From assembly GCA_014377845.1 (NCBI GenBank), contig JACMOV010000010.1, forward strand, positions 1-40,026: a DNA stretch of 40,026 nucleotides. The letters are read 5' to 3'. The DNA is from Herminiimonas sp. Its GTDB lineage: Bacteria; Pseudomonadota; Gammaproteobacteria; Burkholderiales; Burkholderiaceae_D. The notes below the pieces were generated by a model that was not told where the DNA came from, did no database searches, and saw only the letters and a list, made by a program, of their open reading frames with translations. The stretch's first letter is position 1. The number at the start of each line of letters is the position of its first letter. The position numbers and the translations under genes were made by a program. Shown piece by piece: positions 511 to 16,546 of this stretch.

Positions 511-2088
511 ATGCGCGACAAATCAGCACCGCCCAAGAACCCCGCCGAAGTCGCGCGAGAAACCTTCAGCCGGCTCGCACGCGAGCGGATCGCGCCGACT
601 CCGGATAATTACCGCGACATCTATAACGAGATCGTCGGCATCGTCTCCGAATCGAATGCGGAAAGCGTTCTGGCTGGCTTCGCGCAGCACCTCGTGGCCA
701 TGCCGGGCGAAGCAGCGACCGTCGGCGAACAGCTGCGCACGGCGCTGAAGGCGCGCGACTGGACCGACTACAGCGCCTGCCTGATCGCGCTGGGCAATCG
801 CCACCTGCTGCCAAAACCGGTGATCGCAACACCGGCCCCGGTGGTGACGTCGCGTCCGATCGAAGCGCCACCGGCCGACGTCGATATCCAGGTCAAGCAA
901 TTGCGCGAGATGCTGAGCCGCACCCTCGGTTACGCCTTGCCGCCGCTGCTGATCAACGCCCCGGAGCTGATCGCGGAAGCCGAGGCGGTCAGCGCCATGG
1001 CAAAGGACGCGCGATCCGACATTGCGCTGACTGACCTCGCTGCACGCCTCAAGAAATTCTGCTTCAAGCTCGACACCAAGGGTGGCGACCTGGCCGAGCA
1101 GCAGGAGTTGCTGCTGCAGCTGTTCCGGCTGCTGCTGGAGAACGTCGCCGAACTGCTGGAAGACGACAGCTGGCTGCGCGGCCAGATCGGCGCGGTGCAC
1201 AAGCTGCTGTCCGGCCCGATCACGCACCTGGCGTTGAAAGACGCCACCGCCAGCCTGAAGGAAGTGATCTACCAGCAGGGCCTGTTGAAGCATAGCCTGT
1301 CGGAAGCCAAGATCACGGTCAAGAGCATGATGCTGACCTTCGTCGAGCGGCTCGGCGCAGTCGCCGACAGCACCGGCGACTATCACCACAAGATCGACCA
1401 GTACGCCAAGAAGATCAGCGTGGCGCAGGACGTCAAGGACCTGAACCAGATTCTCGACGGCGTCATGCGCGAGACCCGGGCTGCTCAGGAAGAGGCACTG
1501 CGCTCGCGCGACCAGATGGAGAGCGCGCGACAGGAGATGACGGCAGCAGAAGACCGCATCCACAAGCTCGAATCGCAGCTCGAACACCTGAGCGAACTGG
1601 TGCGCGAAGACGAGCTGACCGGCAGCCTGAACCGGCGCGGCCTCGACGAAGTGTTGGAGCGCGAGTTCGCGCGGGTCGACCGCAAGGGCACCAATCTGTG
1701 CGTGGCGATGCTCGACGTCGATGATTTCAAACGCCTCAACGACACGCACGGCCACCTGGCGGGCGACGGTGCGCTGGTGCACCTGGTCGGCATCGTCAAG
1801 GACACCCTGCGCACGATGGACGTGGTCGGCCGCTTCGGCGGCGAGGAATTCCTGGTGATCCTGCCTGACACCACGCTGGCTCTCGCGACCCAGACGATCA
1901 CCCGGCTGCAGCGCGAGCTGACCAAGCGGATTTTCATGTTCAACAACGAGCAGCTGCTGATGACCTTCAGCGCCGGCGTGGCCGCACGCCAGCCCAACGA
2001 AGGCGTGCCGTCGCTGATCAGCCGGGCCGATGGCGCCTTGTACGATGCCAAGAAGACCGGCAAGAACCGGGTGGTGGCGGCGCAATGA
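511..2088 (+). CDS. Soluble diguanylate cyclase (GGDEF domain)
   Basis: A 525-residue protein with no signal peptide or membrane segment, so probably cytoplasmic. The C-terminal 160 residues form a GGDEF domain that condenses two GTP into c-di-GMP. The active-site signature reads GGEEF (residues 443-447), and an RxxD product-inhibition site (RTMD, 434-437) sits exactly five residues before it, so an active, feedback-inhibited enzyme is expected. DELTGSLNRRG near residue 366 marks the domain start. A charged coiled-coil-like helix (about 318-370, rich in E, Q and R) precedes it and probably mediates dimerisation. The N-terminal 300 residues (containing APTPDNYRDIYNEI) are helical and resemble the front part of other betaproteobacterial GGDEF proteins, but I know no defined function for them. 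With ycgR at 21189 it could form a local c-di-GMP motility circuit; that link is inference. Confidence 0.93.
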   Translation: MRDKSAPPKNPAEVARETFSRLARERIAPTPDNYRDIYNEIVGIVSESNAESVLAGFAQHLVAMPGEAATVGEQLRTALKARDWTDYSACLIALGNRHLLPKPVIATPAPVVTSRPIEAPPADVDIQVKQLREMLSRTLGYALPPLLINAPELIAEAEAVSAMAKDARSDIALTDLAARLKKFCFKLDTKGGDLAEQQELLLQLFRLLLENVAELLEDDSWLRGQIGAVHKLLSGPITHLALKDATASLKEVIYQQGLLKHSLSEAKITVKSMMLTFVERLGAVADSTGDYHHKIDQYAKKISVAQDVKDLNQILDGVMRETRAAQEEALRSRDQMESARQEMTAAEDRIHKLESQLEHLSELVREDELTGSLNRRGLDEVLEREFARVDRKGTNLCVAMLDVDDFKRLNDTHGHLAGDGALVHLVGIVKDTLRTMDVVGRFGGEEFLVILPDTTLALATQTITRLQRELTKRIFMFNNEQLLMTFSAGVAARQPNEGVPSLISRADGALYDAKKTGKNRVVAAQ

Positions 2089-2166: not shown

Positions 2167-3651
2167 ATGACGACACAGATCCCACCAGCCAGCCTCGATC
2201 CGGAAGACTGGCCCGCCTTCCGCGAACAAAGTCACCGCATGCTCGATGACATGCTGAACTACGTGCAGAACATCCGCCAGCGTCCGGTCTGGCAACCGAT
2301 CCCCGACCCGGTTCGCGCCCGCTTCCAGGAGCCCCTGCCGCATCAGGCCGGCAGCCTGAAAGATGCGCACGAAACCTTCATGCAGCAGGTCCTCCCCTAC
2401 GCGGTGGGCAACGTCCATCCCGGCTTCATGGGCTGGGTGCATGGCGGCGGCACACCGGTCGGCATGGTGGCGGAAATGCTGTCTGCCGGCCTGAATGCGA
2501 ATCTTGGCGGCCGTAACCAGATGCCGGTCGAAGTCGAGCGCCAGGTCGTGCGCTGGATGCGCGAACTGTTCGAATTTCCGGAGACGGCCAGCGGCGTGTT
2601 CGTCACTGGCACGTCGATGGCCAACCTGATGGCCGTGCTGGTGGCCAGGACGGCAGCGATCGGCAAGTCGGTCCGGCACGACGGCCTGGGTGAGCATGGC
2701 GCGCAACTGGTCGCCTACACCTCGGCGGCGGCGCATGGTTGCGTGGCCCAGGCGATGGACTTGTCGGGACTGGGAACGGCGGCGTTGCGGCGCATTCCGG
2801 TCGATGCCAGCCAGCGGATCGATATCGGCCAACTCAAGGCGGCGATCGCAGCGGATCGCGGCGCGGGACTGCAGCCGTTCTTCATTGCGGGTACCGCAGG
2901 CTCGGTAGACACCGGCGCGATCGACGATCTGACGGCATTGGCCGATCTGGCGGCGCGCGAGGCACTCTGGTTTCATGTCGACGGCGCGTTCGGCGCACTC
3001 GGCATGCTGGCGCCGGATGTCGCACCGCTCCTGGCAGGCATCGAACGGGCGGATTCGATCGCACTGGATTTTCATAAATGGGGGCAGGTTCCCTACGATG
3101 CCGGTTTCCTGCTGGTGCGGGACGCAACCAGGCACATGGATGCGTTTGCCGCTCCAGTGGCATATCTGCGGCGGGAAGCGCGCGGCCTGGCAGCGGGCTC
3201 GCCGTGGCCTTGCGATTTCGGGCCCGACCTGTCGCGCAGTTTTCGGGCATTGAAGACCTGGTTCACGTTCAAGGTCCATGGCGCCGACAAAATGGGCGCG
3301 GCGATTTCGCAAACCTGCGCCCTGGCCCGGTATCTCGCAGGACGGGTCGAGGCCGATCCGGCGCTTGAACTGCTGGCGCCGGTCGCACTCAACATCGTCT
3401 GCTTCCGCTATCGCGCCGCTGCTGCCGATGTCGACGACCTGAACCGCGAACTCGTCGCCGACCTGCACGAGTCTGGCATCGCCGTTCCCTCCACCACGAT
3501 GATCGACGGTCACCTCGCGATCCGGGCGGCGATCGTCAATCACCGCACCTGCAGCGACGACATCGATCGCCTGCTCGATGCCGTCGTGTCGTTCGGCACA
3601 CGCCGTTGCAATGGCAGCAGCACCTCACTGGAACCACCATGTCCGACTTGA
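2167..3651 (+). CDS. Group II pyridoxal-phosphate-dependent decarboxylase family protein
   Basis: A 494-residue fold-type I PLP enzyme of the glutamate/aromatic-amino-acid decarboxylase group. The family pattern is clear: a stacking histidine in SAAAHGCV (H190), the aspartate that holds the pyridine nitrogen in FHVDGAFG (D272), and the Schiff-base lysine in DFHKWGQV (K304). Such enzymes normally remove the alpha-carboxylate of an amino acid to give an amine; the substrate is not predictable here, and some relatives act as aldehyde synthases. The ATG at 2167 is chosen because the upstream in-frame extension (from a TTG at 2104) looks non-coding and homology begins after it; no strong ribosome site is visible for either. 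It is the first of three consecutive genes, and its 3' end overlaps the start of the ATP-grasp gene by 13 bases. Confidence 0.88.
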   Translation: MTTQIPPASLDPEDWPAFREQSHRMLDDMLNYVQNIRQRPVWQPIPDPVRARFQEPLPHQAGSLKDAHETFMQQVLPYAVGNVHPGFMGWVHGGGTPVGMVAEMLSAGLNANLGGRNQMPVEVERQVVRWMRELFEFPETASGVFVTGTSMANLMAVLVARTAAIGKSVRHDGLGEHGAQLVAYTSAAAHGCVAQAMDLSGLGTAALRRIPVDASQRIDIGQLKAAIAADRGAGLQPFFIAGTAGSVDTGAIDDLTALADLAAREALWFHVDGAFGALGMLAPDVAPLLAGIERADSIALDFHKWGQVPYDAGFLLVRDATRHMDAFAAPVAYLRREARGLAAGSPWPCDFGPDLSRSFRALKTWFTFKVHGADKMGAAISQTCALARYLAGRVEADPALELLAPVALNIVCFRYRAAAADVDDLNRELVADLHESGIAVPSTTMIDGHLAIRAAIVNHRTCSDDIDRLLDAVVSFGTRRCNGSSTSLEPPCPT

Positions 3652-4874
3652 TCGAAGCCGCAGCCATACCGTATGCACCGCTGATCGGCGTCGCCCCCCT
3701 GATGCGGCGCGCATTTCTCAAGGAAGACCTTGCGCCGCTGGCGGCAGCCCTGGTCAAGCGCGCGCAGGCGCATCCGGATGACGCCAATGCCTACCTGGAT
3801 TGTTCGACCGTGCTGCAGTTGAGCGGGGACCGCGATATCGCGCTTGCAGTGCAGGCCCAGGCGATCCAGATCCAGCCGCTCTACAACCGGCCGGCCAGTA
3901 CCGCGACGCCGGGCCTGCGCCTGCTGGTCCTGATGGGACCGGGCGACCTGATGTCGAACACGCCGATCGAATTCCTGGTGGAAGACTCCGACGTGGCGCT
4001 GGAACTGCTCTACCTGACCGTCGACACGCCCTTCCCCGACAACGTGCCCGACCATGACGTGATGCTGGTCGCCGTGGCCGAATCGGATAGCAACCAGCCA
4101 CTGCTGCAGAGCCTCTACGGCATCGCCGATGTCTGGCCGCGTCCGGTCGTCAACCTGCCGGAGCGCATCGCGGTGCTGTCGCGTGATGGCGTCTGTGCCG
4201 CCTTGGCTGGGATCGCGGGCGTGGACATGCCGGTCACTGCCCGCATCGACCGCGCTGCATTGGCGGCGCTTGGCGCCGGCGCCGGCAGGCTCGACGACTT
4301 CCTGCCGGGCGATGCCTTTCCGTTGATCGTGCGTCCGACCGGCTCGCATGCCGGTACCAACCTCGACCGGATGGCCACCGCCGGCGACCTCGCAGACTAC
4401 GTGGCGCGCGTCGACGCCGAACGATTTTATATCTCGCGCTTCGTCGACTATCGCAGCGCCGACGGCCTGTTTCGCAAGTACCGGATCGCGCTGATCGAAG
4501 GCCGGGCCTTCGTCTGCCACTACGCCGTGTCGGCCCACTGGATGATCCACTACCTCAACGCCGGCATGAGCGAAAGCGCCGAGAAGCGCGCCGAGGAAGC
4601 CGCCTGCATGGCCAGTTTCGACCAGACCTTCGCGGTGCGCCACGCCGACGCCTTGCGCGCGATCGACCAGCGCATGGGCTTGCCCTATGTCGGCATCGAC
4701 TGCGCCGAGACGCTGGCCGGCGACCTGCTGATCTTCGAAGTCGACAACGCCATGATCGTGCATGCGATGGATGACGAGGCAATGTACCCCTACAAGAAAC
4801 CGGCGATGCAGAAAGTGTTCACCGCATTCCGCCAGATGCTGGAGCACGCACGCGTCGCGACACCCGCGAACTGA
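3639..4874 (+). CDS. TPR-like / ATP-grasp domain protein
   Basis: A 411-residue protein. Residues about 26-75 look like one or two tetratricopeptide-type helical repeats (AHPDDANAYLDCSTVLQLSGD, then a second helix pair). The C-terminal half has the pattern of an ATP-grasp ligase of the RimK/glutathione-synthetase-like group: a glycine-rich loop FPLIVRPTGSHAGTNLD, a strand YRIALIEGRAFVCHYAVS, and a terminal metal-binding segment GIDCAE...LLIFEVDNAMIVH with acidic and Asn ligands. ATP-grasp enzymes join a carboxylate to an amine or thiol through an acyl-phosphate. The ATG at 3639 is preceded by GGAA at a suitable distance, and a TTG 33 bases upstream is less likely. It lies between two PLP enzymes, overlapping the previous gene by 13 bases and the next by one (TGATG), which suggests translational coupling and a shared pathway. 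The substrate is unknown. Confidence 0.75.
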   Translation: MSDLIEAAAIPYAPLIGVAPLMRRAFLKEDLAPLAAALVKRAQAHPDDANAYLDCSTVLQLSGDRDIALAVQAQAIQIQPLYNRPASTATPGLRLLVLMGPGDLMSNTPIEFLVEDSDVALELLYLTVDTPFPDNVPDHDVMLVAVAESDSNQPLLQSLYGIADVWPRPVVNLPERIAVLSRDGVCAALAGIAGVDMPVTARIDRAALAALGAGAGRLDDFLPGDAFPLIVRPTGSHAGTNLDRMATAGDLADYVARVDAERFYISRFVDYRSADGLFRKYRIALIEGRAFVCHYAVSAHWMIHYLNAGMSESAEKRAEEAACMASFDQTFAVRHADALRAIDQRMGLPYVGIDCAETLAGDLLIFEVDNAMIVHAMDDEAMYPYKKPAMQKVFTAFRQMLEHARVATPAN

Positions 4875-6457
4875 TGCCATCCTGCCCGCCAAGCGAACCG
4901 GTGCTGGCGGACACGCGCGCCCTGCTGGTGTCGGGCGGCGATGCCCGCATCCGGCGCGACCCGGCCACCGGCCTATCGAAATACGGCTGCGGCGCGCAAC
5001 CCGACCCGGACCTGATCGCGCTCGGCTCGTGCACTGCATCGACCATCTCGACAGCCGGCATGGCGGCAGCCAATGCCTTGCGGACCGCATGTCTTCAGGC
5101 CCTGAAAGACCAACCCGCTACAACCGTCTACGCCACCCGTGCCCAGCGTCTGCGAACGACCCTGATCGATCTGTGCGGCTTCACCGAAAGCGATCGGGTC
5201 GACGCGGTGCTGGCGGCCTCCGGCACCGATGTACTGCTGCTGGCTGCGCAATGGCTCAAGCCGGATTGCACCGTGATGGTCGAGCCCGGCGAAACCGGCA
5301 GCGGCGCGGTTGCCGCGTTGCGCGGCCAGCATTTCAACCCGCGCACGGCGCATCGCGCCTCGGTCACCATCGGTGACCCGATCGGCGACTGGCGCGGCAC
5401 GCTCGTGACGCTGCCGGTGCGCGAGGCAGATGGCAGCCTGAGGCAAGCGGCCGAGATCGATGCCGAATGGATGGCACGCGTGAACGCAGCGGCGCAGGCT
5501 GGCCAACGCGTGCTGCTGATCCTGACCGACGTCACCAAGACCGGATTGATCGTGCCCGGTATCGACACGGTGCTGGCACTCAAGCGACGCTGGCCGGCGC
5601 AGGTCGAGGTGCTGGTCGATGCCTGTCAGTTCAGGATGTCGATGGCGACCGTGCGCGCCTATGTCGCCGAAGGTTGGATGGTGGCGCTGACCGGCTCCAA
5701 GTTCGTCGCCGGTCCGACCTTCAGCGGCGTGCTGCTGGTGCCGCCGGCAACTGCCCACCGGTACCGGGACGTCGCGCTTGGTTCCGGCGCAGGTGCGTAT
5801 TCCGGAATCGCGGACTGGCCGCGGGGCTGGGCGGCCGGGGCGTCTCTGCCCGCGACCACCAACTTCGGCCTGTTGCTGCGATGGGAAGCGGCGCTGCCGA
5901 ACCTGCGCGCGTTTGCCGCCCTCTCCGATCAGGCCGTCGCGGCATTCCTGCGCCGGTTCGGCGAGACCATCACCACGGCGCTCGCCGCCAACCCATGCTT
6001 CGAAGCCTTGCCGGTTGCGGCGCTTGCGCGCGGATCGCTCGCAGGGAGGAAGAACCGGGATGCAGACTGGGGGGCAGAATGGGCGGCTGAATGGGACACA
6101 ACCCAGACGATCTTTCCGTTCCTGCTACGCGCACCGGGCAGCCTCCGGCCGCTGCAACGCGACGAAACCGAAAAGGTGCACCGCGCCTTGCAGCTGGCCG
6201 GTGACCTGCACGGCGGGAGGCGTTTTCAACTGGGTCAGCCGGTCGCATGCGGACTCCGCGACGCGGTCGAGGTCAGTGCGCTGCGCTTGTGTGTGAGTGC
6301 GCCGATGATGGTTGCGGCGTGCACGGGGGGCGAGGCCGCGGTTGAGGCCGCACTGGGCGCCGCGCTCGCGGCCTTCGACCGGATCGGCGAACTGCTGGCA
6401 GCGCGTCACGCCGCCGGGCGCCGTCCCGATGCCACACACAACCTGCACATCGGCTGA
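4874..6457 (+). CDS. Class V aminotransferase-like PLP enzyme of unknown specificity
   Basis: A 527-residue protein not recognised as a named enzyme. The centre has the layout of a fold-type I PLP enzyme of the class V (cysteine desulfurase/kynureninase-like) type: AASGTDVLLLA for the phosphate-binding turn, VLVDACQF with the pyridine-nitrogen aspartate (D249) and a nearby Gln (Q252), and TGSKFVAGP with the probable Schiff-base lysine (K276). The protein is longer than usual class V enzymes (about 380-420), with an extra C-terminal part and an Ala/Arg-rich tail. Its start codon overlaps the stop of the ATP-grasp gene (TGATG). Possible activities include C-S or C-C lyase, aminotransferase or desulfurase; the sequence does not decide between them. 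Confidence 0.7.
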   Translation: MPSCPPSEPVLADTRALLVSGGDARIRRDPATGLSKYGCGAQPDPDLIALGSCTASTISTAGMAAANALRTACLQALKDQPATTVYATRAQRLRTTLIDLCGFTESDRVDAVLAASGTDVLLLAAQWLKPDCTVMVEPGETGSGAVAALRGQHFNPRTAHRASVTIGDPIGDWRGTLVTLPVREADGSLRQAAEIDAEWMARVNAAAQAGQRVLLILTDVTKTGLIVPGIDTVLALKRRWPAQVEVLVDACQFRMSMATVRAYVAEGWMVALTGSKFVAGPTFSGVLLVPPATAHRYRDVALGSGAGAYSGIADWPRGWAAGASLPATTNFGLLLRWEAALPNLRAFAALSDQAVAAFLRRFGETITTALAANPCFEALPVAALARGSLAGRKNRDADWGAEWAAEWDTTQTIFPFLLRAPGSLRPLQRDETEKVHRALQLAGDLHGGRRFQLGQPVACGLRDAVEVSALRLCVSAPMMVAACTGGEAAVEAALGAALAAFDRIGELLAARHAAGRRPDATHNLHIG

Positions 6458-6587
6458 AAGCTCAGTCCGCCCTTCGCCCGGATCAGGAGACAAGCCTGCC
6501 TGTTTCAAATCCGGATCTGTTGAAGAAATCCCTGCCTGTTCGACCGACTGCGACGCAACCGAAAGTATTATTATGGAGCAATAAAAA

Positions 6588-6639
6588 GACGCCATCACCA
6601 CGGCCGTCATTGTCGTTTTTGCCATCACGGGATGGCGTC
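6588..6639 (+). promoter_or_regulatory. Leader with alternative hairpins upstream of the VioA-like gene
   Basis: GACGCCATC at 6588-6596 is the exact reverse complement of GATGGCGTC at 6631-6639, a 9-bp stem. The same right arm can instead pair with GCCATC at 6621-6626, giving a 6-bp stem with an ACGG loop. The two foldings are mutually exclusive because GCCATCAC occurs twice. The segment follows an AT-rich stretch (6566-6587) and ends 27 bases before the chosen start codon. A regulatory role is inference; no riboswitch class is recognised. Confidence 0.35.
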
Positions 6640-6666
6640 AACACGAACACCGCAGGGATGGGCCAC

Positions 6667-7779
6667 ATGCGCGACACCAAGCCGATTTACGTTACCCAGC
6701 CTCACCTGCCGCCGCTGGCGGAGTTCCTGCCGTATCTCGAAAAAATCTGGGACAGCCGGGTACTCACCAATGGCGGTCCATTCCATGCCCAGCTGGAAGC
6801 GGCGCTGTGCGACTACCTCGGTGTCGAACACCTGGCGCTATTCACCAACGGCACGATCGGTCTGATCACGGCATTGCAGGCATTGCGGATCACCGGTGAA
6901 GTCATCACCACACCCTACTCCTTCGTCGCCACCGCACACTCGCTGGTCTGGAACGGGATCAAGCCGGTCTTCGTCGATGTCCATCCCGACACGCTCAATT
7001 TGGACCCCGCCAGGATCGAAGCCGCGATCACGCCGCAGACGACGGCCATCATGCCGGTGCATTGCTACGGACATCCGTGCGACGTCGATGCCATCGAGAA
7101 GATCGCCGACAACTACAATCTGAAAGTGATCTACGACGCCGCGCATGCCTTTGGCGTGAAGTGCCATTGCGGCAGCGTGCTCACGCATGGCGACCTGTCG
7201 GTGCTGAGCTTTCATGCGACCAAAGTGTTCAATACCTTCGAGGGCGGCGCCATCATCTGCCCCGACGCAAAGACCAAGGTCCGCATCGATCACCTGAAGA
7301 ATTTCGGCTTCGTCGACGAGACCATCGTCGTCGCGCCCGGCATCAATGGCAAGATGAGCGAGTTCAATGCAGCGCTGGGTCTCCTGCAGTTGAAGGGAAT
7401 CGATGCGGCACTGGCGCGGCGCAGGGAGGTCGATGCGCTGTATCGCCGGTTGCTGCCGGAGATTAAAGGTATTCGTATTCTGAGCGACAGCGGCGAGCAC
7501 ACGTCGAACTACGCATACTTTCCGGTCATGGTCGAGGATGACTATCCACTGAGCCGCGACGGCCTTTATACCCGCCTGCGAGAGCAGAATATTTTCTCGC
7601 GACGGTATTTTTATCCGCTGATCACGGATTTTCCGATGTATCGCGGTCTTCCCTCGGCCCAGGCGGAAAATCTGCCGGTGGCGACTGCGGCGGCGCGCAA
7701 GGCGCTGTGCTTGCCGATTTATCCGGGGTTGACGGATGAGGATGTTTATCGGGTGGTGGACTGTTTGCGAAGCGCATAA
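6667..7779 (+). CDS. DegT/DnrJ/EryC1/StrS-family sugar aminotransferase (VioA-like)
   Basis: A 370-residue PLP-dependent aminotransferase that adds an amino group to a nucleotide-activated keto-deoxysugar. Family marks: YVTQPHLPPL at the N-terminus, LTNGGPFHAQLE, FTNGTIGLITALQAL, ITTPYSFVATAHS, the aspartate in VIYDAAHAFG and the Schiff-base lysine in LSFHATKVFN (K186). From memory the pattern is closest to VioA (dTDP-4-amino-4,6-dideoxyglucose synthesis), but QdtB/FdtB-type 3-aminotransferases are related, so the sugar position is uncertain. Start: an in-frame TTG at 6520 and an ATG at 6658 exist, but AGGGA at 6654-6658 is well spaced for the ATG at 6667, where family homology begins. It is convergent with the glycan operon downstream. 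A VioA-type enzyme beside flagellin genes recalls the viosamine island of Pseudomonas syringae. No dehydratase or thymidylyltransferase is in the window. Confidence 0.9.
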   Translation: MRDTKPIYVTQPHLPPLAEFLPYLEKIWDSRVLTNGGPFHAQLEAALCDYLGVEHLALFTNGTIGLITALQALRITGEVITTPYSFVATAHSLVWNGIKPVFVDVHPDTLNLDPARIEAAITPQTTAIMPVHCYGHPCDVDAIEKIADNYNLKVIYDAAHAFGVKCHCGSVLTHGDLSVLSFHATKVFNTFEGGAIICPDAKTKVRIDHLKNFGFVDETIVVAPGINGKMSEFNAALGLLQLKGIDAALARRREVDALYRRLLPEIKGIRILSDSGEHTSNYAYFPVMVEDDYPLSRDGLYTRLREQNIFSRRYFYPLITDFPMYRGLPSAQAENLPVATAAARKALCLPIYPGLTDEDVYRVVDCLRSA

Positions 7780-9249: not shown

Positions 9250-10203
9250 TTATGGCTCCAATTTTGCAAGGCCAAACCCAAAACGGCCGAACTCATTGCC
9301 GTTGTACAACAAATACACGTCACCATCCATCTCGAACAGATGCGGGTAACACAGCATGTCGGCGTCCCACGCTCCAGGTGTCGGATCGATACCAACTTCG
9401 GTATCCTGCCGCGTCCAGTTCACGAGATCATCCGAGTAAGCGTAGCCCAGACGATAGCCGCGTCCAGAATTGTTCCGGAAATCGGACGATTGCCTGTAGC
9501 AGAAAAGCATGTGGAATCGGTCGCCAATCCGGATCACGGTAGGCAGCGCCTGGCTCTCGTCGAAATTCAAGCGATCACTGATGATCGGATGGCCATCCCG
9601 CCGCACCCAGTCGATTCCGTCCTGAGAAACGGCATGACCAATTTTGTAGATTCTGTCGGGCGGGACGTCCTCGGAAAAAACTTTCCATTCGGTCCCGAAG
9701 ATGTACCACATGTGGAACTGGCCATTGAACTCACGCACGAACGGATCGCCGATAAGGAATGGCTCGTTCAATGATGCTGCGAGTACCGGCCCGTTGCCGG
9801 TACGCTGAAATGTAACACCGTTGTCGTTGCTGATCGCCAATCCGATTGCACCGTCGACCGAGACCGAAACGCGACGATTCCACCCACCGATGTAGCCCAG
9901 AATCCCCTGATCCGTTTTAAGGATGTTGAGAGGGAAAATGCCGTGTTCGTCATAACAACCGAGCTCACCAAGCGCGAGCACGGTACCTGTGGAGACGCTA
10001 CGCACGGCAAACGCCTTGTCGAAGTCAACATAGGCGATATGACTGAGATACTTGCCTGAAGCATCCCGTTCGCGCGTAGAGAAATAAACGCGCACGAAGT
10101 CATCAAACACCAGCGCTTGCGGCGACTGCGCAAATTCCTTGCACCGGTTAGGTAACGTAGTTTCAGTGGGATCAAAAATCTTCCCAAGCTTTTTCCACTT
10201 CAT
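9250..10203 (-). CDS. Beta-propeller glycosidase-like protein (GH43/GH32/GH130-like fold), copy B
   Basis: A 317-residue protein without signal peptide, so probably cytoplasmic. It has the repeating blade pattern of five-bladed glycosidase propellers: QALVFDDFVRVYFSTRE, LGELGCYDEHGIFP, IGLAISNDNGVTF, FNGQFHMWYIFGTEWKV, IGHAVSQDGIDWVR, DRFHMLFCYRQ, LGYAYSDDLVNWTR and a closing CYPHLFEMDGDVYLLYNGNE. The SxDGxxW-type blades are typical of GH43/GH32 relatives. Whether it hydrolyses, transfers or phosphorolyses a sugar is unknown; a cytoplasmic glycan-operon member is unlikely to be a scavenging hydrolase. It is closely related to the gene immediately upstream (10218-11186), 14 bases away, so the two arose by tandem duplication. 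Its stop codon abuts the acetyltransferase start. Confidence 0.8.
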   Translation of the reverse strand: MKWKKLGKIFDPTETTLPNRCKEFAQSPQALVFDDFVRVYFSTRERDASGKYLSHIAYVDFDKAFAVRSVSTGTVLALGELGCYDEHGIFPLNILKTDQGILGYIGGWNRRVSVSVDGAIGLAISNDNGVTFQRTGNGPVLAASLNEPFLIGDPFVREFNGQFHMWYIFGTEWKVFSEDVPPDRIYKIGHAVSQDGIDWVRRDGHPIISDRLNFDESQALPTVIRIGDRFHMLFCYRQSSDFRNNSGRGYRLGYAYSDDLVNWTRQDTEVGIDPTPGAWDADMLCYPHLFEMDGDVYLLYNGNEFGRFGFGLAKLEP

Positions 10204-10217
10204 GGCAGCATTCCAGG

Positions 10218-11186
10218 TCAGAAAAACAAAGGCGCATCGAGGACGGCGAGCCCGAACCCATATCGTCCGACTTCATTTCCTAGATACATCATATAGAGCT
10301 TACCGTCGAGCTCGAACACATGCGGATACGCGACCGACTGGTTGTCCCAACCGTCGCCATCATCGATATCAATCCCGGCCTTTGCGTCATCGCGGTGCCA
10401 CTGAAGCATATCGTCCGACCACGCGTACCCGATCCGATAGCCGCGATCCGAATTTCTGAAATTCGAACTGTATTTATAGCAAAAAAACATGTGGTATCGA
10501 TTTTGGTAGAACAAGACATCGGGGCTCGCCTGACATTCGTCCTCCTCCAGAATACTTTCGATGAGGTCGAGATTGTGGCGGGTCCAGTTCACGCCATCCT
10601 GGGACGACGCCATTCGAATTTTAAAAATCGATTCGGGCCGGCCTTCCGACACTTTCCACTTGGTGCCGGCGACGTACCAGAGGTACCAGAGGCCATTGAA
10701 CCGGCGGATTTTCGGCCCGCTCACGGTCATTGGTTCGTGCTGACTGTAAGATAGAATTGGCCCTGGTCCCACACGTTCGAAGCTCACCCCATCATCCTTA
10801 CTCAGTGCCATCCCGATGGCAACGTTGTAGGGAACGGACTCGCATCGCGTCCAGCCCGCGTAGTACGCCTTGACCAGGTCACCATCGCGAATGACCGAAG
10901 TCGGATAGATGCCAAATTCGTCGAACATTCCAAGCTTGCCCAAACCAAGAATGGGCTGATCGGCAATCCGTATAACCTCGGTCAGGTCACAACGGTTCAA
11001 ATCGACATAGGCTGTATGGCTGACATACTGGCCTTGCAAATCGCGCGCTGGCCGGCACGCAAAATAGACCCTTACGAAATCATCGAAGACAAGCGTTGCC
11101 GGCGCCTGGGCGAATTCCTTGAGCCACGGCCTGTCCTGCACATCCTGGGGTGTGAACACCTTCCCCAGCTTTTTCCATTTAAACAT
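10218..11186 (-). CDS. Beta-propeller glycosidase-like protein (GH43/GH32/GH130-like fold), copy A
   Basis: A 322-residue paralogue of the next gene in the operon. Shared blocks in the same order include EFAQxPxxLVFDDFVRVYF, a second LGxLGxxDExGIxP block, WKKLGK at the N-terminus, GxxWKV in the middle, SxDGxxWxR, HMxFCY, FRNxxRGYRxGYA and GNExGRxGFGLA at the end. The spread of conserved acidic residues (Asp in FDDF, DE in FDEFGIYP, and E in DEDECQAS) suits an active site in the propeller channel, but catalysis is not demonstrable by eye. Its ATG overlaps the end of the WbqC-family gene (ATGTTTAA), indicating translational coupling. A role in building or remodelling the surface glycan is inferred from neighbours. 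Confidence 0.8.
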   Translation of the reverse strand: MFKWKKLGKVFTPQDVQDRPWLKEFAQAPATLVFDDFVRVYFACRPARDLQGQYVSHTAYVDLNRCDLTEVIRIADQPILGLGKLGMFDEFGIYPTSVIRDGDLVKAYYAGWTRCESVPYNVAIGMALSKDDGVSFERVGPGPILSYSQHEPMTVSGPKIRRFNGLWYLWYVAGTKWKVSEGRPESIFKIRMASSQDGVNWTRHNLDLIESILEEDECQASPDVLFYQNRYHMFFCYKYSSNFRNSDRGYRIGYAWSDDMLQWHRDDAKAGIDIDDGDGWDNQSVAYPHVFELDGKLYMMYLGNEVGRYGFGLAVLDAPLFF

Positions 11187-11886
11187 GGCAGTCCAATTCG
11201 TAGTTTTCGAGTAGTCCGGTCTTGACCGCTTCCAGCGCGTTGAACATCAGAACATCAATGATCGACAGCCACGGCTGGAAAGGTTGTCCGAATTGCGGAT
11301 ATTCGAAGGGTTTCGCACGCATGAACTGCAGTTCGATACCGCATTCACGGAAGTCGCCATGTGAATAAAGCCCGGCACCCCCGCTGGAATTCACGTACAC
11401 CTCGGCGCCGACAGACGGGCATAGCGCGAGGACCTTGTCCTGGCCTTTCAGATCATGGTCGATCGCGACGTCCGATGATATCTTGATTGTTGTCGAGATC
11501 TCAAGATGCTTGCACATGGTCACGATCGAGGCATGTATGTACCGAAACAGGTTCTGCTCTTCATTGCCGATGATCACCTCCACGATCGGGAAGACCTGAT
11601 TGAAGAACGGTGCGCGGCGATAGGCCTCGCGAAGCTGGTTGAGGAGCTTCTTACGATCAAAATCGGTGGCCAGCTCACGCTGCACGACATCGCCTTCACT
11701 TGCGTCTTTTTTCAACGGCAATGTAAATACAGCAGCCCCGCCGTTCTTGAGAAATCGATTCCGATTGATCCAGCCTTTTTTTGTATATTGAATATTGTCG
11801 TACACCAGAAACATGTCCACCGCGTGGATCAGCTGGTAGTAGCCAATGTAGGGCAGGAAATACGGTTGCATGATGGCCAGCTTCAT
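11179..11886 (-). CDS. WbqC-family protein
   Basis: A 235-residue protein with the signature of the WbqC family: MQPYFLPYIGYYQLI at the N-terminus, then VYDNIQYTKKGWINRNR and FTLPLKKD. Members occur in O-antigen and flagellar glycan loci, often beside sugar aminotransferases, and their biochemical role is not settled; an acyl or amino-group modifying function has been suggested by context only. The ATG at 11886 is chosen because family homology begins there; an upstream in-frame start at 11982 would overlap the preceding gene and add unrelated residues. It lies 41 bases after the stop of the glycosyltransferase and overlaps the following propeller gene by eight bases. Confidence 0.88.
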   Translation of the reverse strand: MKLAIMQPYFLPYIGYYQLIHAVDMFLVYDNIQYTKKGWINRNRFLKNGGAAVFTLPLKKDASEGDVVQRELATDFDRKKLLNQLREAYRRAPFFNQVFPIVEVIIGNEEQNLFRYIHASIVTMCKHLEISTTIKISSDVAIDHDLKGQDKVLALCPSVGAEVYVNSSGGAGLYSHGDFRECGIELQFMRAKPFEYPQFGQPFQPWLSIIDVLMFNALEAVKTGLLENYELDCHV

Positions 11887-11927: not shown

Positions 11928-14063
11928 TCAGCGCGTGGCGTCGAAAGACTCTGGTGGCAAGTTCGCACACCAGCGACGCCACATCACGCGAAAGGCTGCC
12001 TCGAGGCCTGCCACCACCATCGCAGGTTGAACGAGTGGAGAATGGATCATCCGCTCACGCATCGTGGGTCGAAGCGCTGCCAGCGCTGGCAAGTCGTTTG
12101 CGAGGGCGATTCCCTTTTCAACGAAGTCGTCGCCATCCGCGGCCGTGAATCTGTCGAGCCCGAGATGGCCGTTCAAGACGCAGCCCTGGCGACCTGCGGC
12201 AGTTCGACCTGCGAACGTCAGCGTCGGCACGCCCATCCAGGCGGCATGCAGGTTCGTCGTGCCACCTGAATAAGGCGCCGTATCGAGACAGATGTCGACC
12301 TGGTGATGCAGTGCGAGGTACGCGTCCATGTTGCACCGGTCATGAAACTGCAGCCGGGTTCTGGCGACCCCGCCAGCCTCGAAAAAACTGGTCAGTTCGT
12401 CCCGGATTTCGCTCCCTTGCAGAGCGGCAAACAACAGGCTTGAATCGGGTACGGCCTGTAGTAATCGCCGCCAATACTCCAGAGTGGGCTGGTTGAACTT
12501 ATGCGGCTGATTGAAACTTCCAAAAGTCAGTTTCCCTGCCGTTGCGGCTGGTAAGGGTTCAATACCGGGCGCGCTTTCAGAGGGCAAAAAGACGCACGAT
12601 GCGGGAAGGCGCACGATTTTTTCCCTAAACTGATCGTCGCAAACACCGGAAGGGAGATAAAAACGGTCCGCGAGATAGTAATCCATCGCCTGCAAGCCGC
12701 TCGTTCCCGGATAGCCGATCCACGAGCACTGCACCGGCGCTGGCTTGCGCGCAAACGTCATCAAGCGGTTGCCGGCAGTATGTCCGCTCAGATCAATCAG
12801 GATATCGATGTGATCCGCGCGAATCCGGGCAGCGAGATGGTCGTCAGACAGCGTGGCGCATGGCACCCAGTGATCGCACAATGACTGCAGCCGAATCGAG
12901 ACCGCATCATTCTTGATGTCGTTGTAGTAGCAAAATACTTCGAACGCCTTGGAATCATGCCCCGCAAGAGCCGGCTCGATGAACGTCGCGACGGCGTGAT
13001 TGTACAAATCAGCAGAAACATAACCAATCCTGAGGCGCCGCTCGGGATCGCTGTCATTTGGGTGCGGCAACCATCGCGCCACCAGCGGGCCTTCGAAGTG
13101 GCGGCCGAAGTGACAATGCTGTGCGAATAATTCTGCTGGCGAGCTACTGCTGGAATACTGCATCGCCATGAGCAAATTGTCATGCGCCTGAGCGTGATCC
13201 GGATTGAGTTCGACAGCGCGGCGATTGCACGCTACCGGGAAATCGGGATCATCGGAAAATTGCTTCGTGACCAGCAGACTTCCAAGATTGAAAAACGCCT
13301 TGGCATTGTTACCGTCAATTTCGATGGCGCGCGCAAGCCAGGCCGCTGCCTGCTCGCTATCGCCAAGCTTGCGCGTCGCAAGACCAATGTTGGCGAGTGT
13401 ATTCGAATCCGTCGGGTTCAGATCGCGCGCCCGGTCGAGGCAGATCTTCGCCTCCTCTCCCTGCCCGTCTTCCATCAGCGCCGCGCTGAGCATCGCCCAG
13501 GCATTGGCATCATTTGGCGCGATTGCGAGCGCCGCCTGAAAACTCGCTATGGCGGGACCGAGTTGCCTTGTTTCAGCCAGTACGGCTGCCAGGTTTGCAT
13601 GCGCAAGCGCATCGGCAGGATTCATCTCGACAGCAATCCGGAACTGAATCGCTGCGTCGTGCGGCCGACCCGAAGCCGAGAGCACGGTGCCGAGGTTATA
13701 GAAATAGCGCGGATCGGCACGGCTTTGAAGGATGGCTGCTTCGATTCTGGCGATGGCGGCGATCTTGTCACCGTTGTGGAAATCGATCAGACCGAGCAAA
13801 TGCAGTGCGTCCGCATGGTTTGGGACGATTTCCAATATATCCCGGTAGAGTTGTGCAGCTGTGTCCACATCGCCAGCCTGATGTGCCGCAACCGCACGTA
13901 TGAGTAGCGCCGTGGGTGTCACTGCCGGCAAACCATCACTGCTGGTCTTATTGAAGCAGCAATGCTTGAATTTATTGCCACTACCGCAGAAACACGGATC
14001 GTTACGACGCGGTTTTGATTGTGTCAATGTAGTCATTGGCATTTTCGGTTTGATGGGCAGCAT
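11928..14063 (-). CDS. SEC-C/TPR/O-GlcNAc-transferase-like (SPINDLY, GT41) protein
   Basis: A 711-residue protein with three parts. Residues 22-36 form a SEC-C zinc-binding motif (NDPCFCGSG...KHCC; Cys 24, 26, 35, 36). Residues about 50-330 are tandem tetratricopeptide repeats (recurring NLG/NLA and AxxxNPxxAxAHxN patterns). Residues about 335-705 are a GT41 catalytic region: RLRIGYVSADLYNHAVATF with the conserved histidine, APVQCSWIGYPGTSG, FGSFNQPHKFNQP with the conserved lysine, and LDTAPYSGGTTNLHAAWMG. GT41 enzymes transfer a sugar from a nucleotide donor to Ser/Thr of proteins in the cytoplasm, and TPRs present the acceptor. Its position divergent from fliC, 462 bases away, makes flagellin the leading candidate acceptor. 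It heads a six-gene minus-strand series. No clear ribosome site was found at the ATG; in-frame alternatives lie at 14042 and 14036. Confidence 0.9.
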   Translation of the reverse strand: MLPIKPKMPMTTLTQSKPRRNDPCFCGSGNKFKHCCFNKTSSDGLPAVTPTALLIRAVAAHQAGDVDTAAQLYRDILEIVPNHADALHLLGLIDFHNGDKIAAIARIEAAILQSRADPRYFYNLGTVLSASGRPHDAAIQFRIAVEMNPADALAHANLAAVLAETRQLGPAIASFQAALAIAPNDANAWAMLSAALMEDGQGEEAKICLDRARDLNPTDSNTLANIGLATRKLGDSEQAAAWLARAIEIDGNNAKAFFNLGSLLVTKQFSDDPDFPVACNRRAVELNPDHAQAHDNLLMAMQYSSSSSPAELFAQHCHFGRHFEGPLVARWLPHPNDSDPERRLRIGYVSADLYNHAVATFIEPALAGHDSKAFEVFCYYNDIKNDAVSIRLQSLCDHWVPCATLSDDHLAARIRADHIDILIDLSGHTAGNRLMTFARKPAPVQCSWIGYPGTSGLQAMDYYLADRFYLPSGVCDDQFREKIVRLPASCVFLPSESAPGIEPLPAATAGKLTFGSFNQPHKFNQPTLEYWRRLLQAVPDSSLLFAALQGSEIRDELTSFFEAGGVARTRLQFHDRCNMDAYLALHHQVDICLDTAPYSGGTTNLHAAWMGVPTLTFAGRTAAGRQGCVLNGHLGLDRFTAADGDDFVEKGIALANDLPALAALRPTMRERMIHSPLVQPAMVVAGLEAAFRVMWRRWCANLPPESFDATR

Positions 14064-14525: not shown

Positions 14526-16019
14526 ATGGCCTCATTCATCAATACAAACCTGGCATCACTGAACGCACAACGTAACCTGTCGACGTCGCAATCGTCGTTG
14601 GCAACGTCGCTTCAGCGGCTGTCGTCCGGTTTGCGGATCAACAGCGCGAAGGACGACGCTGCGGGCCTTGCAATCGCCGATCGCTTGACATCACAGATCA
14701 ACGGCTCAACCCAGGCTGCCCGTAACGCCAACGACGGTATCTCCCTGGCGCAAACGGCCGAGGGCGATCTGGCCCAGATCGGTACCAACCTGCAACGTAT
14801 CCGCGAACTGGCCGTGCAGGCATCGAACGGCAGCAACAGCGCCAGCGACCGTGCATCCCTGAACAACGAAGCCCAGCAGCTGTCTTCGGAGATCGACCGC
14901 GTTGCCTCCAACTCATCGTTCAACGGTGTCAAGTTACTTGACGGCTCGTTCAACGCCCAGTCGTTCCAGGTCGGCGCCAACAACACTGCCAACGACAGCA
15001 TCTCGATTGCAGCGATCTCCAGCGCCCGTACCTCAGCACTTGGCGGCAGCGGTACCTCGACGCAGACGACCGTCACGGGCACGCTCGCAACTTCGTCGGC
15101 ACTGTCCGCAGGTGACCTGACATTGAACGGCTTCCAGATCGGCGCGTCTACCGTCGGTTCGTCAGCAGGTCAAGGTGCAGATAGCGCCTTCTCGGTTGCT
15201 GCTGCGATCAATGCAGTGTCATCCCAGTCTGGTGTCACCGCAACCGCAGTCGCTGCTACCGTCACCGGTGCGACGCCATCATCGTCGGGTAGTGCTGTTT
15301 CCGCGGGTTCCTTTTCCATCAATGGCGTCAACGTAGGGGCGATTGCCGCTGGCGGCGATGCAATTGGCGCCGGTGCCAACACCGCAGCTGCCATCAATCT
15401 GATTGCTGGCCAGACGGGCGTTACGGCAAAGGCAGATAACGCCGGCTTGGTCACGCTGACTGCTGCTGACGGGCGCGACATCACCCTGACGGCAAATGCA
15501 AAGGATTCGGCAGGTACCACCGTCGTCGCGGCTACCGTCAACAGCAATACGGGGCTGACAACGTCGACAGGTACTGGAACCACGACCAGGGGCAAAGTGA
15601 ACCTGAGCTCCAACGCAGCCGGTGGCATCACGATTTCCGGTGGTAATCCAGCCTATGCAGGACAGGCAGCAGGTACTACGGCGCCTTCCACCACGCTGAC
15701 GGTCAACAGCATCTCGACCATCGACCTGTCGACGACGGCTGGCGCCAAGAACGCGCTGGCAGCAATCGACGGCGCGCTTACCGGCGTCAACAGCTCCCGC
15801 GCTTCACTGGGTGCGTATCAAAACCGTTTCGCGTCGGCGGTCACCAGCCTGCAAACCACGTCGGAGAACTTGTCTGCATCGCGCAGCCGGATTCAAGACA
15901 CGGACTTTGCATCTGAGACCGCCAGCCTGACCCGGGGCCAGATCCTGCAACAAGCCGGTACCGCGATCCTGGCGCAAGCCAACTCGCTGCCGAACGGTGT
16001 CCTCGCACTGCTGCGTTAA
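14526..16019 (+). CDS. fliC: Flagellin
   Basis: A 497-residue filament subunit. The N-terminal D0/D1 region (SFINTNLASLNAQRNL, LSSGLRINSAKDDAAGLAIADRL) and the C-terminal D0/D1 region (NRFASAVTSLQTTSENLSASRSRIQDTDFA, ending LPNGVLALLR) are fully conserved. The surface-exposed middle (about 175-400) is Ser/Thr/Ala/Gly-rich and contains two flagellin-hook IN-type repeats, at about 190-235 (SAGDLTLNGFQIG) and 255-310 (SAGSFSINGVNVG). These exposed Ser/Thr residues are plausible O-glycosylation sites for the neighbouring transferase. An AAGGAG site (14513-14518) lies seven bases before the ATG, and two sigma-28-like promoters lie upstream. Only one flagellin gene is visible in the window. Confidence 0.98.
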   Translation: MASFINTNLASLNAQRNLSTSQSSLATSLQRLSSGLRINSAKDDAAGLAIADRLTSQINGSTQAARNANDGISLAQTAEGDLAQIGTNLQRIRELAVQASNGSNSASDRASLNNEAQQLSSEIDRVASNSSFNGVKLLDGSFNAQSFQVGANNTANDSISIAAISSARTSALGGSGTSTQTTVTGTLATSSALSAGDLTLNGFQIGASTVGSSAGQGADSAFSVAAAINAVSSQSGVTATAVAATVTGATPSSSGSAVSAGSFSINGVNVGAIAAGGDAIGAGANTAAAINLIAGQTGVTAKADNAGLVTLTAADGRDITLTANAKDSAGTTVVAATVNSNTGLTTSTGTGTTTRGKVNLSSNAAGGITISGGNPAYAGQAAGTTAPSTTLTVNSISTIDLSTTAGAKNALAAIDGALTGVNSSRASLGAYQNRFASAVTSLQTTSENLSASRSRIQDTDFASETASLTRGQILQQAGTAILAQANSLPNGVLALLR

Positions 16020-16144: not shown

Positions 16145-16546
16145 ATGAGCCTCAGTCCGATTTCAGGTTACGCACAGTCGCTGCCTGCCGCCAGTCCGCC
16201 GGCCGATACCGCGCGCGGTACGCCCGCAGTTGCGCTGCGTTCCAATCCACCGGCTGCCGCCGTCGCGCCGCAGGCCAAGGTTGACCCCACGACGTCGATC
16301 AGCCCAAATACCCAGTCCGTCAAGGATGCCGCCCTGAACAAGGCGGTCGATGCGATCAACCGGTTCATCAATCCGGTCGCCAGCAGCATTCAATTCAGCG
16401 TCGACGAAGATAGCGGCCGCACCCTGGTGAAGGTGGTCGATACCGACACCAACACTGTGCTGCGCCAGTTCCCGTCGAAAGAAGCACTCGCGATTTCGCA
16501 TGAGCTCGACAAGCTTCAGGGTCTGCTCGTCAAGGACAAAGCGTAA
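16145..16546 (+). CDS. flaG: Flagellar protein FlaG
   Basis: A 133-residue FlaG-family protein. The variable N-terminus is rich in Ala and Pro; the conserved C-terminal domain (about 60-133) contains INRFINPVASSIQFSVDEDSGRTLVKVVDTDTN, with the family pattern of a short beta hairpin, followed by VLRQFPSKEALAISHELD. FlaG affects filament length in several bacteria, but its mechanism is not established. An AAGGAG site (16132-16137) precedes the ATG. It lies between fliC and fliD, as is usual in Gram-negative flagellar loci, and fliD follows after 18 bases. Confidence 0.92.
   Translation: MSLSPISGYAQSLPAASPPADTARGTPAVALRSNPPAAAVAPQAKVDPTTSISPNTQSVKDAALNKAVDAINRFINPVASSIQFSVDEDSGRTLVKVVDTDTNTVLRQFPSKEALAISHELDKLQGLLVKDKA

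Follow-up and report, generated by a model that had tools for sequence, protein, structure and literature searches.

The methanofuran pathway contains a tyrosine decarboxylase, MfnA, and the tyramine-glutamate ATP-grasp ligase MfnD, so that the amine from a pyridoxal 5'-phosphate (PLP)-dependent decarboxylase is joined to a carboxylate by an ATP-grasp ligase. The same logic may be shared by three overlapping genes of Herminiimonas sp., here called g1, g2 and g3, which are followed by a flagellar locus (GenBank assembly GCA_014377845.1, contig JACMOV010000010.1, positions 1 to 40,026; this whole stretch of 40,026 nucleotides is referred to as the window). They encode an amino acid decarboxylase, a candidate ATP-grasp protein with a tetratricopeptide repeat (TPR)-like N terminus, and probably a second PLP enzyme. 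Methanofuran synthesis differs in being a C1-cofactor pathway, and g1 falls far below the cut-off of the MfnA model (87.4 bits, cut-off 299.4).

ATP-grasp proteins have also been described in two flagellin loci. The type B flagellin glycan of Clostridium difficile carries a taurine-Ala-Gly cap that is amide-linked to an amino sugar, and a mutant in the ATP-grasp gene produces flagellin without the terminal taurine-containing peptidyl-amido sugar (PMC5207245, PMC5207246). As described there, the locus (CDR20291_0242-0247) is similar to ours in having an ATP-grasp protein within a flagellin locus and differs in its other members: FdtB, a protein resembling FemAB, one resembling ornithine cyclodeaminase, and glycosyltransferases. 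In the text of PMC5207246 the word decarboxylase is absent. In Shewanella oneidensis, the last gene of sfmABCDE (SO_3261-3265) codes for an ATP-grasp protein of 412 aa, and the sfmE deletion led to a flagellin mass shift slightly smaller than that of other mutants and to reduced spreading (PMC3765264). The partners of this gene, PseI-like, thiamine pyrophosphate-dependent, reductase and methyltransferase proteins, are unlike those of the trio, and neither pyridoxal nor aminotransferase occurs as a word in that text (PMC3765264). The two PLP enzymes set the trio apart from both flagellin loci, which are likened to it here by their descriptions. A 2016 C. difficile paper stated that glycans with peptidyl substituents had not been reported from Gram-negative organisms (PMC5207245). 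No paper or experiment on the trio was found in searches of open-licence papers, including PMC12826043 and the review PMC3958885; Iyer et al. 2009 (PMC3268129), a survey of amidoligases that lay outside this scope, may mention it.

The trio is a conserved operon

The start codon of g2 (ATG at 3639) lies within g1, whose TGA occupies 3649-3651, giving an overlap of 13 bases, and g3 starts with an ATG at 4874, the last base of the g2 stop codon (TGA, 4872-4874), giving an overlap of one base. Three overlapping open reading frames (ORFs) had been claimed at these coordinates in a first-pass annotation made from the letters of the window, and both the coordinates and the overlaps were borne out. 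Conservation was analyzed in 80 module loci (L079-L158), the best of at least 582 g2-relative stretches from named genomes obtained by scanning with a g2 alignment; they are the top-scoring loci and no random draw, and partners were called by tblastn (E<=1e-8) within the retrieved stretch. In these loci g1 was found in 76/80, g3 in 51/80 and the complete trio in 50/80. The gene g1 was immediately upstream of g2 on the same strand in 71 of the 76 loci having it, with a gap of 20 bases or less in 62 of those 71, and g3 was downstream on the same strand in 45/51, at 20 bases or less in 27. Additionally, among 196 genomes of the window's family, g2 was matched in 40 (E<=0.001) and g3 in 28, and g2 was present in 26 of the 28 genomes with g3 (P=4e-20). 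The trio is thus one conserved operon, and the co-occurrence of the three genes elsewhere, a check named in the first-pass annotation, was confirmed. The unit does not depend on g3, since no g3 match was found at E<=1e-8 in 29 of the 80 loci. Two of these 29 (L102, L132) have a partial g3 match at a contig end, and a search with a g3 profile recovers L132 only.

The distance matrices of g1, g2 and g3 correlate (rho 0.65-0.74, with 500 permutations giving 0.22 or less; 44 rows, 43 loci and the window), a pattern that shared descent by itself could also produce. By their titles, the module loci belong to Oxalobacteraceae, Gallionellaceae, Sulfuricella/Sulfuriferula, Methylobacter, Variovorax and metagenome-assembled genomes (MAGs) labelled Acidobacteriota and Riflebacteria. 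The trio is also present on a Rhizobium tumorigenes plasmid, in the order g2-g3-g1.

Flagellar genes are the recurrent partner of the module

The recurrent genomic partner of the module is the flagellar genes, which vary by clade, and this is a new result. The queries were 21 proteins encoded in the flagellar locus of the window (E<=1e-5; nine confirmed as flagellar by Pfam, the others ORFs of the locus). A match was found within ~10 kb of g2 in 32/80 loci and in 0/40 controls, which were 20-kb stretches taken at random from six genomes that carry g2 and belong to a single family (Fisher P=1.6e-7, uncorrected for relatedness). With the nine confirmed queries alone 31/80 loci were positive, the remaining one (L143) depending on two unconfirmed queries. 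A flagellar link had been suggested in the first-pass annotation, and it came out stronger than foreseen. The positive loci comprise, by titles, 18 of 41 Oxalobacteraceae-like loci and 14 of the 39 others. In 19 loci the sole flagellar match was FlaG, which could lie before or after the module. Combinations of FliC, FlaG, FliD and FliS adjoin the module in loci of methanotrophs (Methylobacter) and sulfur oxidisers (Sulfuriferula and Sulfuricella); the adjoining genes are FliF/FliG in the case of three Gallionellaceae and FlgK/FlgL/FliC in that of one Riflebacteria MAG.

In the phylum sample, g2 was matched in 35/397 genomes, of which 27 were used for a flagellin test after excluding G000 and seven matches weaker than 1e-50. 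Flagellin-domain genes were present in 27/27 of these genomes compared to 330/397 of the whole sample (P=0.006), and g2 was 7 kb or less from a flagellin-domain match in 10/27. Eight of these ten genomes belong to one genus outside the window's class, in which flagellin was near g2 in all eight g2 genomes, the matches of one (G306) being below the Pfam cut-off. Within the window's family, FliD was found in 31/31 complete g2 genomes compared to 154/175 (P=0.013); 35 of the 40 genomes with g2 entered this test, after removal of five whose matches were weak or partial, and FliD was present in 33/35.

The orphan FlaG genes, away from the usual fliC-fliD place, are those of L080, L087, L088, L093-L097, L099, L100, L103, L104, L106, L107, L140-L142, L145 and L155. 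Lastly, g3 matches away from g2 were seen in two genomes (G151:C1:3086010-3086930 and G483:C40:46296-47765), with a FliD match at a distance of ~5 kb and a flagellin match at ~10 kb.

Protein families and conserved residues

The product of g1 matches PF00282 with 210.8 bits (E 3.4e-62, cut-off 27), and its closest named relatives of solved structure are aromatic amino acid and diaminobutyrate decarboxylases. It falls in no named NCBIfam substrate class among diaminobutyrate (DABA), Asp, Tyr, His and Glu decarboxylases (e.g. 193.8 versus 900 bits), and because it lies far below each equivalog cut-off matched, no substrate class was assigned. Assigning the substrate through active-site residues was also considered, and no assignment was possible. 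Residues H190, D272 and K304, which we take to be the His, Asp and Lys of the PLP site, are invariant in 73/73 alignment rows and in 13/13 distant loci of the phylum sample, and R453 is conserved in both sets. The alignment rows include the window, and a filter on length and undetermined residues removed 4/76 g1 and 4/51 g3 matches.

At E<=0.01 the window protein of g2 is matched by neither a Pfam nor an NCBIfam model, and it has no Pfam ATP-grasp match. A profile of 45 g2 sequences aligns at residues 168-312 with 3vpd, its best match of solved structure (E 0.0033), and at residues 35-85 with the TPR protein YrrB (E 0.099). When the 45 sequences were scanned singly (E<=1), TPR_10 was matched in 15, GSH-S_ATP in 10 (best 0.01) and RimK in three (best 0.00052). 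The protein therefore has a weak assignment as a TPR-like stretch followed by a RimK/LysX-like ATP-grasp domain. The earlier label of TPR-like/ATP-grasp corresponds to this weak profile similarity, with no match above a curated cut-off. Compared with RimK/LysX-type ligases, g2 differs by its TPR-like N terminus, and its R232 aligns with a Lys of 3vpd. R232, K280, D354 and E367 are invariant (80/80 rows, 20/20 distant loci), whereas D369 is kept in 80/80 rows yet in only 17/20 distant loci; K280, D354, E367 and D369 are candidate ATP/Mg residues.

Searches of Pfam and NCBIfam with the g3 protein of the window likewise gave nothing at E<=0.01. The class V family PF00266 is not matched by it and is matched by 2 of 42 g3 sequences scanned (best E 0.0049) and by none of 10 further distant members. 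An hhalign comparison with a class V set (13 rows, four of them truncated members of at most 148 aa) places D249, Q252 and K276 in register with the class V Asp, Gln and Schiff-base Lys (D..Q...TGHK), with a weak score (P=0.012, probability 3.7%); comparisons with g1, g2 and DegT gave P values of 0.23-0.54. Two of these, g1 and DegT, also belong to the PLP enzymes and yet were unmatched by g3, so the class V register is suggestive and not proof. A comparison with one SerC-like sequence gave no match, and a search of viral contigs with a g3 pattern gave three matches, with no relative of g3 among them. S116-G117-T118, D249, Q252 and K276 are invariant in 48/48 rows and R471 is kept in 47/48; K276 is also found in 9/9 distant phylum-sample loci. 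The two lysines that the first-pass annotation had taken as catalytic, K304 of g1 and K276 of g3, hence held in every row and every distant locus. These motifs, together with the weak profile match, indicate that g3 is probably a fold-type I, class V-like PLP enzyme. R471 may correspond to the Arg through which class V enzymes bind the alpha-carboxylate, in which case g3 would act on an amino acid.

Window neighbourhood and variants of the module

The genes of the window are listed in Table 1. After the trio the order is DegT, a methyltransferase, a GNAT protein, two GH130-like proteins, WbqC and a TPR protein, followed by flagellin; we take the TPR protein for a putative GT41-like transferase. 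DegT was tried as a fourth member of the module and rejected, as it adjoins 1/80 modules (tblastn E<=1e-10). A gene set similar to the window's post-trio genes, including a relative of the GH130/GH43-like proteins, occurs in one Methylobacter locus (L120). Diguanylate cyclase genes (53-64% identity to that of the window) adjoin the module on either side in L048, L050, L052, L054, L115, L146, L119 and L123, some of which are one species in duplicate.

Table 1. Position and assignment of the trio and of other genes in the window.
Feature	Position	Strand	Description	Basis or remark
g1	2167..3651	+	AADC-type (group II) PLP-dependent amino acid decarboxylase, 494 aa	PF00282; Schiff-base Lys304 = codon 3076-3078
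g2	3639..4874	+	Putative N-terminal TPR-like stretch and C-terminal RimK/LysX-like ATP-grasp, 411 aa	weak profile matches
g3	4874..6457	+	Divergent, probably fold-type I (class V-like) PLP enzyme, 527 aa	motifs, weak hhalign
g3 motifs	5699-5701 (Lys276 codon)		Lys276 in TGSKF; D249/Q252 in DACQ	
Diguanylate cyclase	511..2088	+	directly upstream of g1	PF00990
DegT	6520-7779		first gene after the trio	
Two tandem GH130/GH43-like proteins	9250-10203, 10218-11186	-		score below the Pfam GH130 cut-off
TPR protein	11928-14063		between the trio and flagellin	
Flagellin	14526..16019	+	flagellar locus follows the trio region	PF00669, PF00700
FlaG	16145..16546	+	commonest flagellar neighbour of the module elsewhere	PF03646

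Several variants of the module were also observed. Seven loci (L032, L066, L069, L072, L239, L244, L246) combine g2 with a SerC-like class V aminotransferase and have neither g1 nor g3, and in one of them (L069) FliC, FliD, FliS, FlgK and FlgL are also nearby. A family that has no Pfam match and carries a HEFGH/HEFAH motif, a putative zinc peptidase, lies near g1-g2 in L049 (6511-7467), L051 (4350-5336) and 21/80 module loci, and g3 is absent in 17 of these 21. On a conjugative Cupriavidus plasmid (L034, 9968-11217), g2 appears as two overlapping ORFs after glycosyltransferase genes, with no g1 or g3 match within the stretch. In L073 (426-7641), genes for a C39-peptidase ABC exporter, an HlyD protein and a relative of the window's TPR protein precede a distant relative of g2 (30%); this is possibly a locus for modification of an exported protein. 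Homologues of g3 (~39% identity, Lys276 kept) were found directly after nonribosomal peptide synthetase (NRPS) genes on Rhizobium and Sinorhizobium plasmids (L033 and L035, each 9968-11503). Our reading of these arrangements is that g2 is the core and that the PLP enzymes tailor its substrate.

Proposed function and alternatives

We tentatively propose, at slightly less than an even chance, that the trio is dedicated to modifying the flagellar filament through an amine-fed ATP-grasp amide ligase. The decarboxylase g1 would convert an amino acid to a primary amine, and g2, acting as an amide ligase, would activate a carboxylate as an acyl phosphate and join it to this amine. Where present, g3 would make or trim the amino-acid partner, and the filament would finally carry the product, most probably attached by an amide link to flagellin or its glycan. 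The comparisons above show the conserved operon, the invariance of the catalytic residues and the linkage to differing sets of flagellar genes, and the flagellin loci of C. difficile and S. oneidensis serve as precedents. Decarboxylation and ATP-dependent ligation are the steps predicted from the protein families; beyond them, we infer the order of steps, the substrates and flagellin or its glycan as acceptor.

Several observations weigh against this proposal. In 48 of the 80 loci there was no flagellar match in the retrieved stretch and, since the loci are interrelated and the controls come from one family, the P value of the linkage is too small by an unknown amount; the FliD test at the family level is weak because most genomes are flagellate. 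The sigma-28, sigma-54 and sigma-70 consensus sequences showed no clear excess upstream of g1 over shuffles or the reverse strand in 72 regions (71 loci and the window), and a scan of the window found no sigma-70-like site. Moreover, g3 is often missing, and no transferase belongs to the module. The g3 homologues next to NRPS genes and the distant g2 relative next to secretion genes indicate that these families are not flagellum-only. The glycan genes do not help either: the first-pass annotation had suggested a possible flagellin decoration from the position of the trio beside them, and when the seven window genes between the trio and flagellin were used as queries, matches were obtained in 4/80 module loci versus 2/40 random stretches, so they are no recurrent partner of the module. 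The idea of a glycan island as a recurrent feature was rejected on these counts, and that reason for decoration is not supported.

Small-molecule pathways are a typical setting for ATP-grasp ligases and PLP enzymes, and the trio could instead make a diffusible amine-amide, such as a signal, a metallophore or an antibiotic-like dipeptide amide, and lie near flagellar genes through co-regulation with motility. This would be in keeping with the g3 homologues that follow NRPS genes on rhizobial plasmids, with a module that has no glycosyltransferase and with the 48 loci that have no flagellar neighbour. On the other hand, the flagellar linkage recurs with differing structural genes, and transporters and regulators are not among the conserved partners, the commonest non-trio neighbour family (an ABC ATPase by sequence) being found in 7/41 loci. 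We consider a small-molecule product rather unlikely, without being negligible.

RimK and tubulin ligases act on proteins, which raises the alternative that g2 recognises flagellin or FlaG through its TPR-like part and uses its ATP-grasp part to couple the amine to a carboxylate of the filament protein, in a side chain or at the C terminus. The coupling of a TPR-like N terminus to a RimK/LysX-type ATP-grasp domain would suit such a role, as would the recurrent neighbours, which are FlaG, FliC, FliD and FliS and not glycan genes; against it, the TPR-like part covers only ~50 residues with weak scores, and no special acceptor motif was noticed when the FlaG alignment was inspected by eye. We regard this alternative as doubtful, and its widest form, a new kind of flagellar post-translational modification in many Proteobacteria, in which a TPR-guided ATP-grasp ligase would attach a biogenic amine, made by decarboxylation of an amino acid, to flagellin or FlaG carboxylates with no glycan involved, as slightly more doubtful still. 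That the trio is an unlinked catabolic or biosynthetic operon, with its flagellar neighbourhood an accident of genome order kept by descent, is very improbable, because, even if the 80 loci are not independent and about half are Oxalobacteraceae-like, loci outside that group are flagellar-positive too and with different flagellar genes, and in a genus of another class g2 lies among flagellin genes in every g2 genome, one of them through sub-cut-off matches.

Two proteins that have no Pfam or NCBIfam model are now placed in one conserved operon partnered with the flagellum. If the trio does modify flagellin, an amine-ligation route would be added to the known chemistry of this protein, and the prediction of a modified filament can be tested by flagellin mass spectrometry in culturable environmental bacteria.

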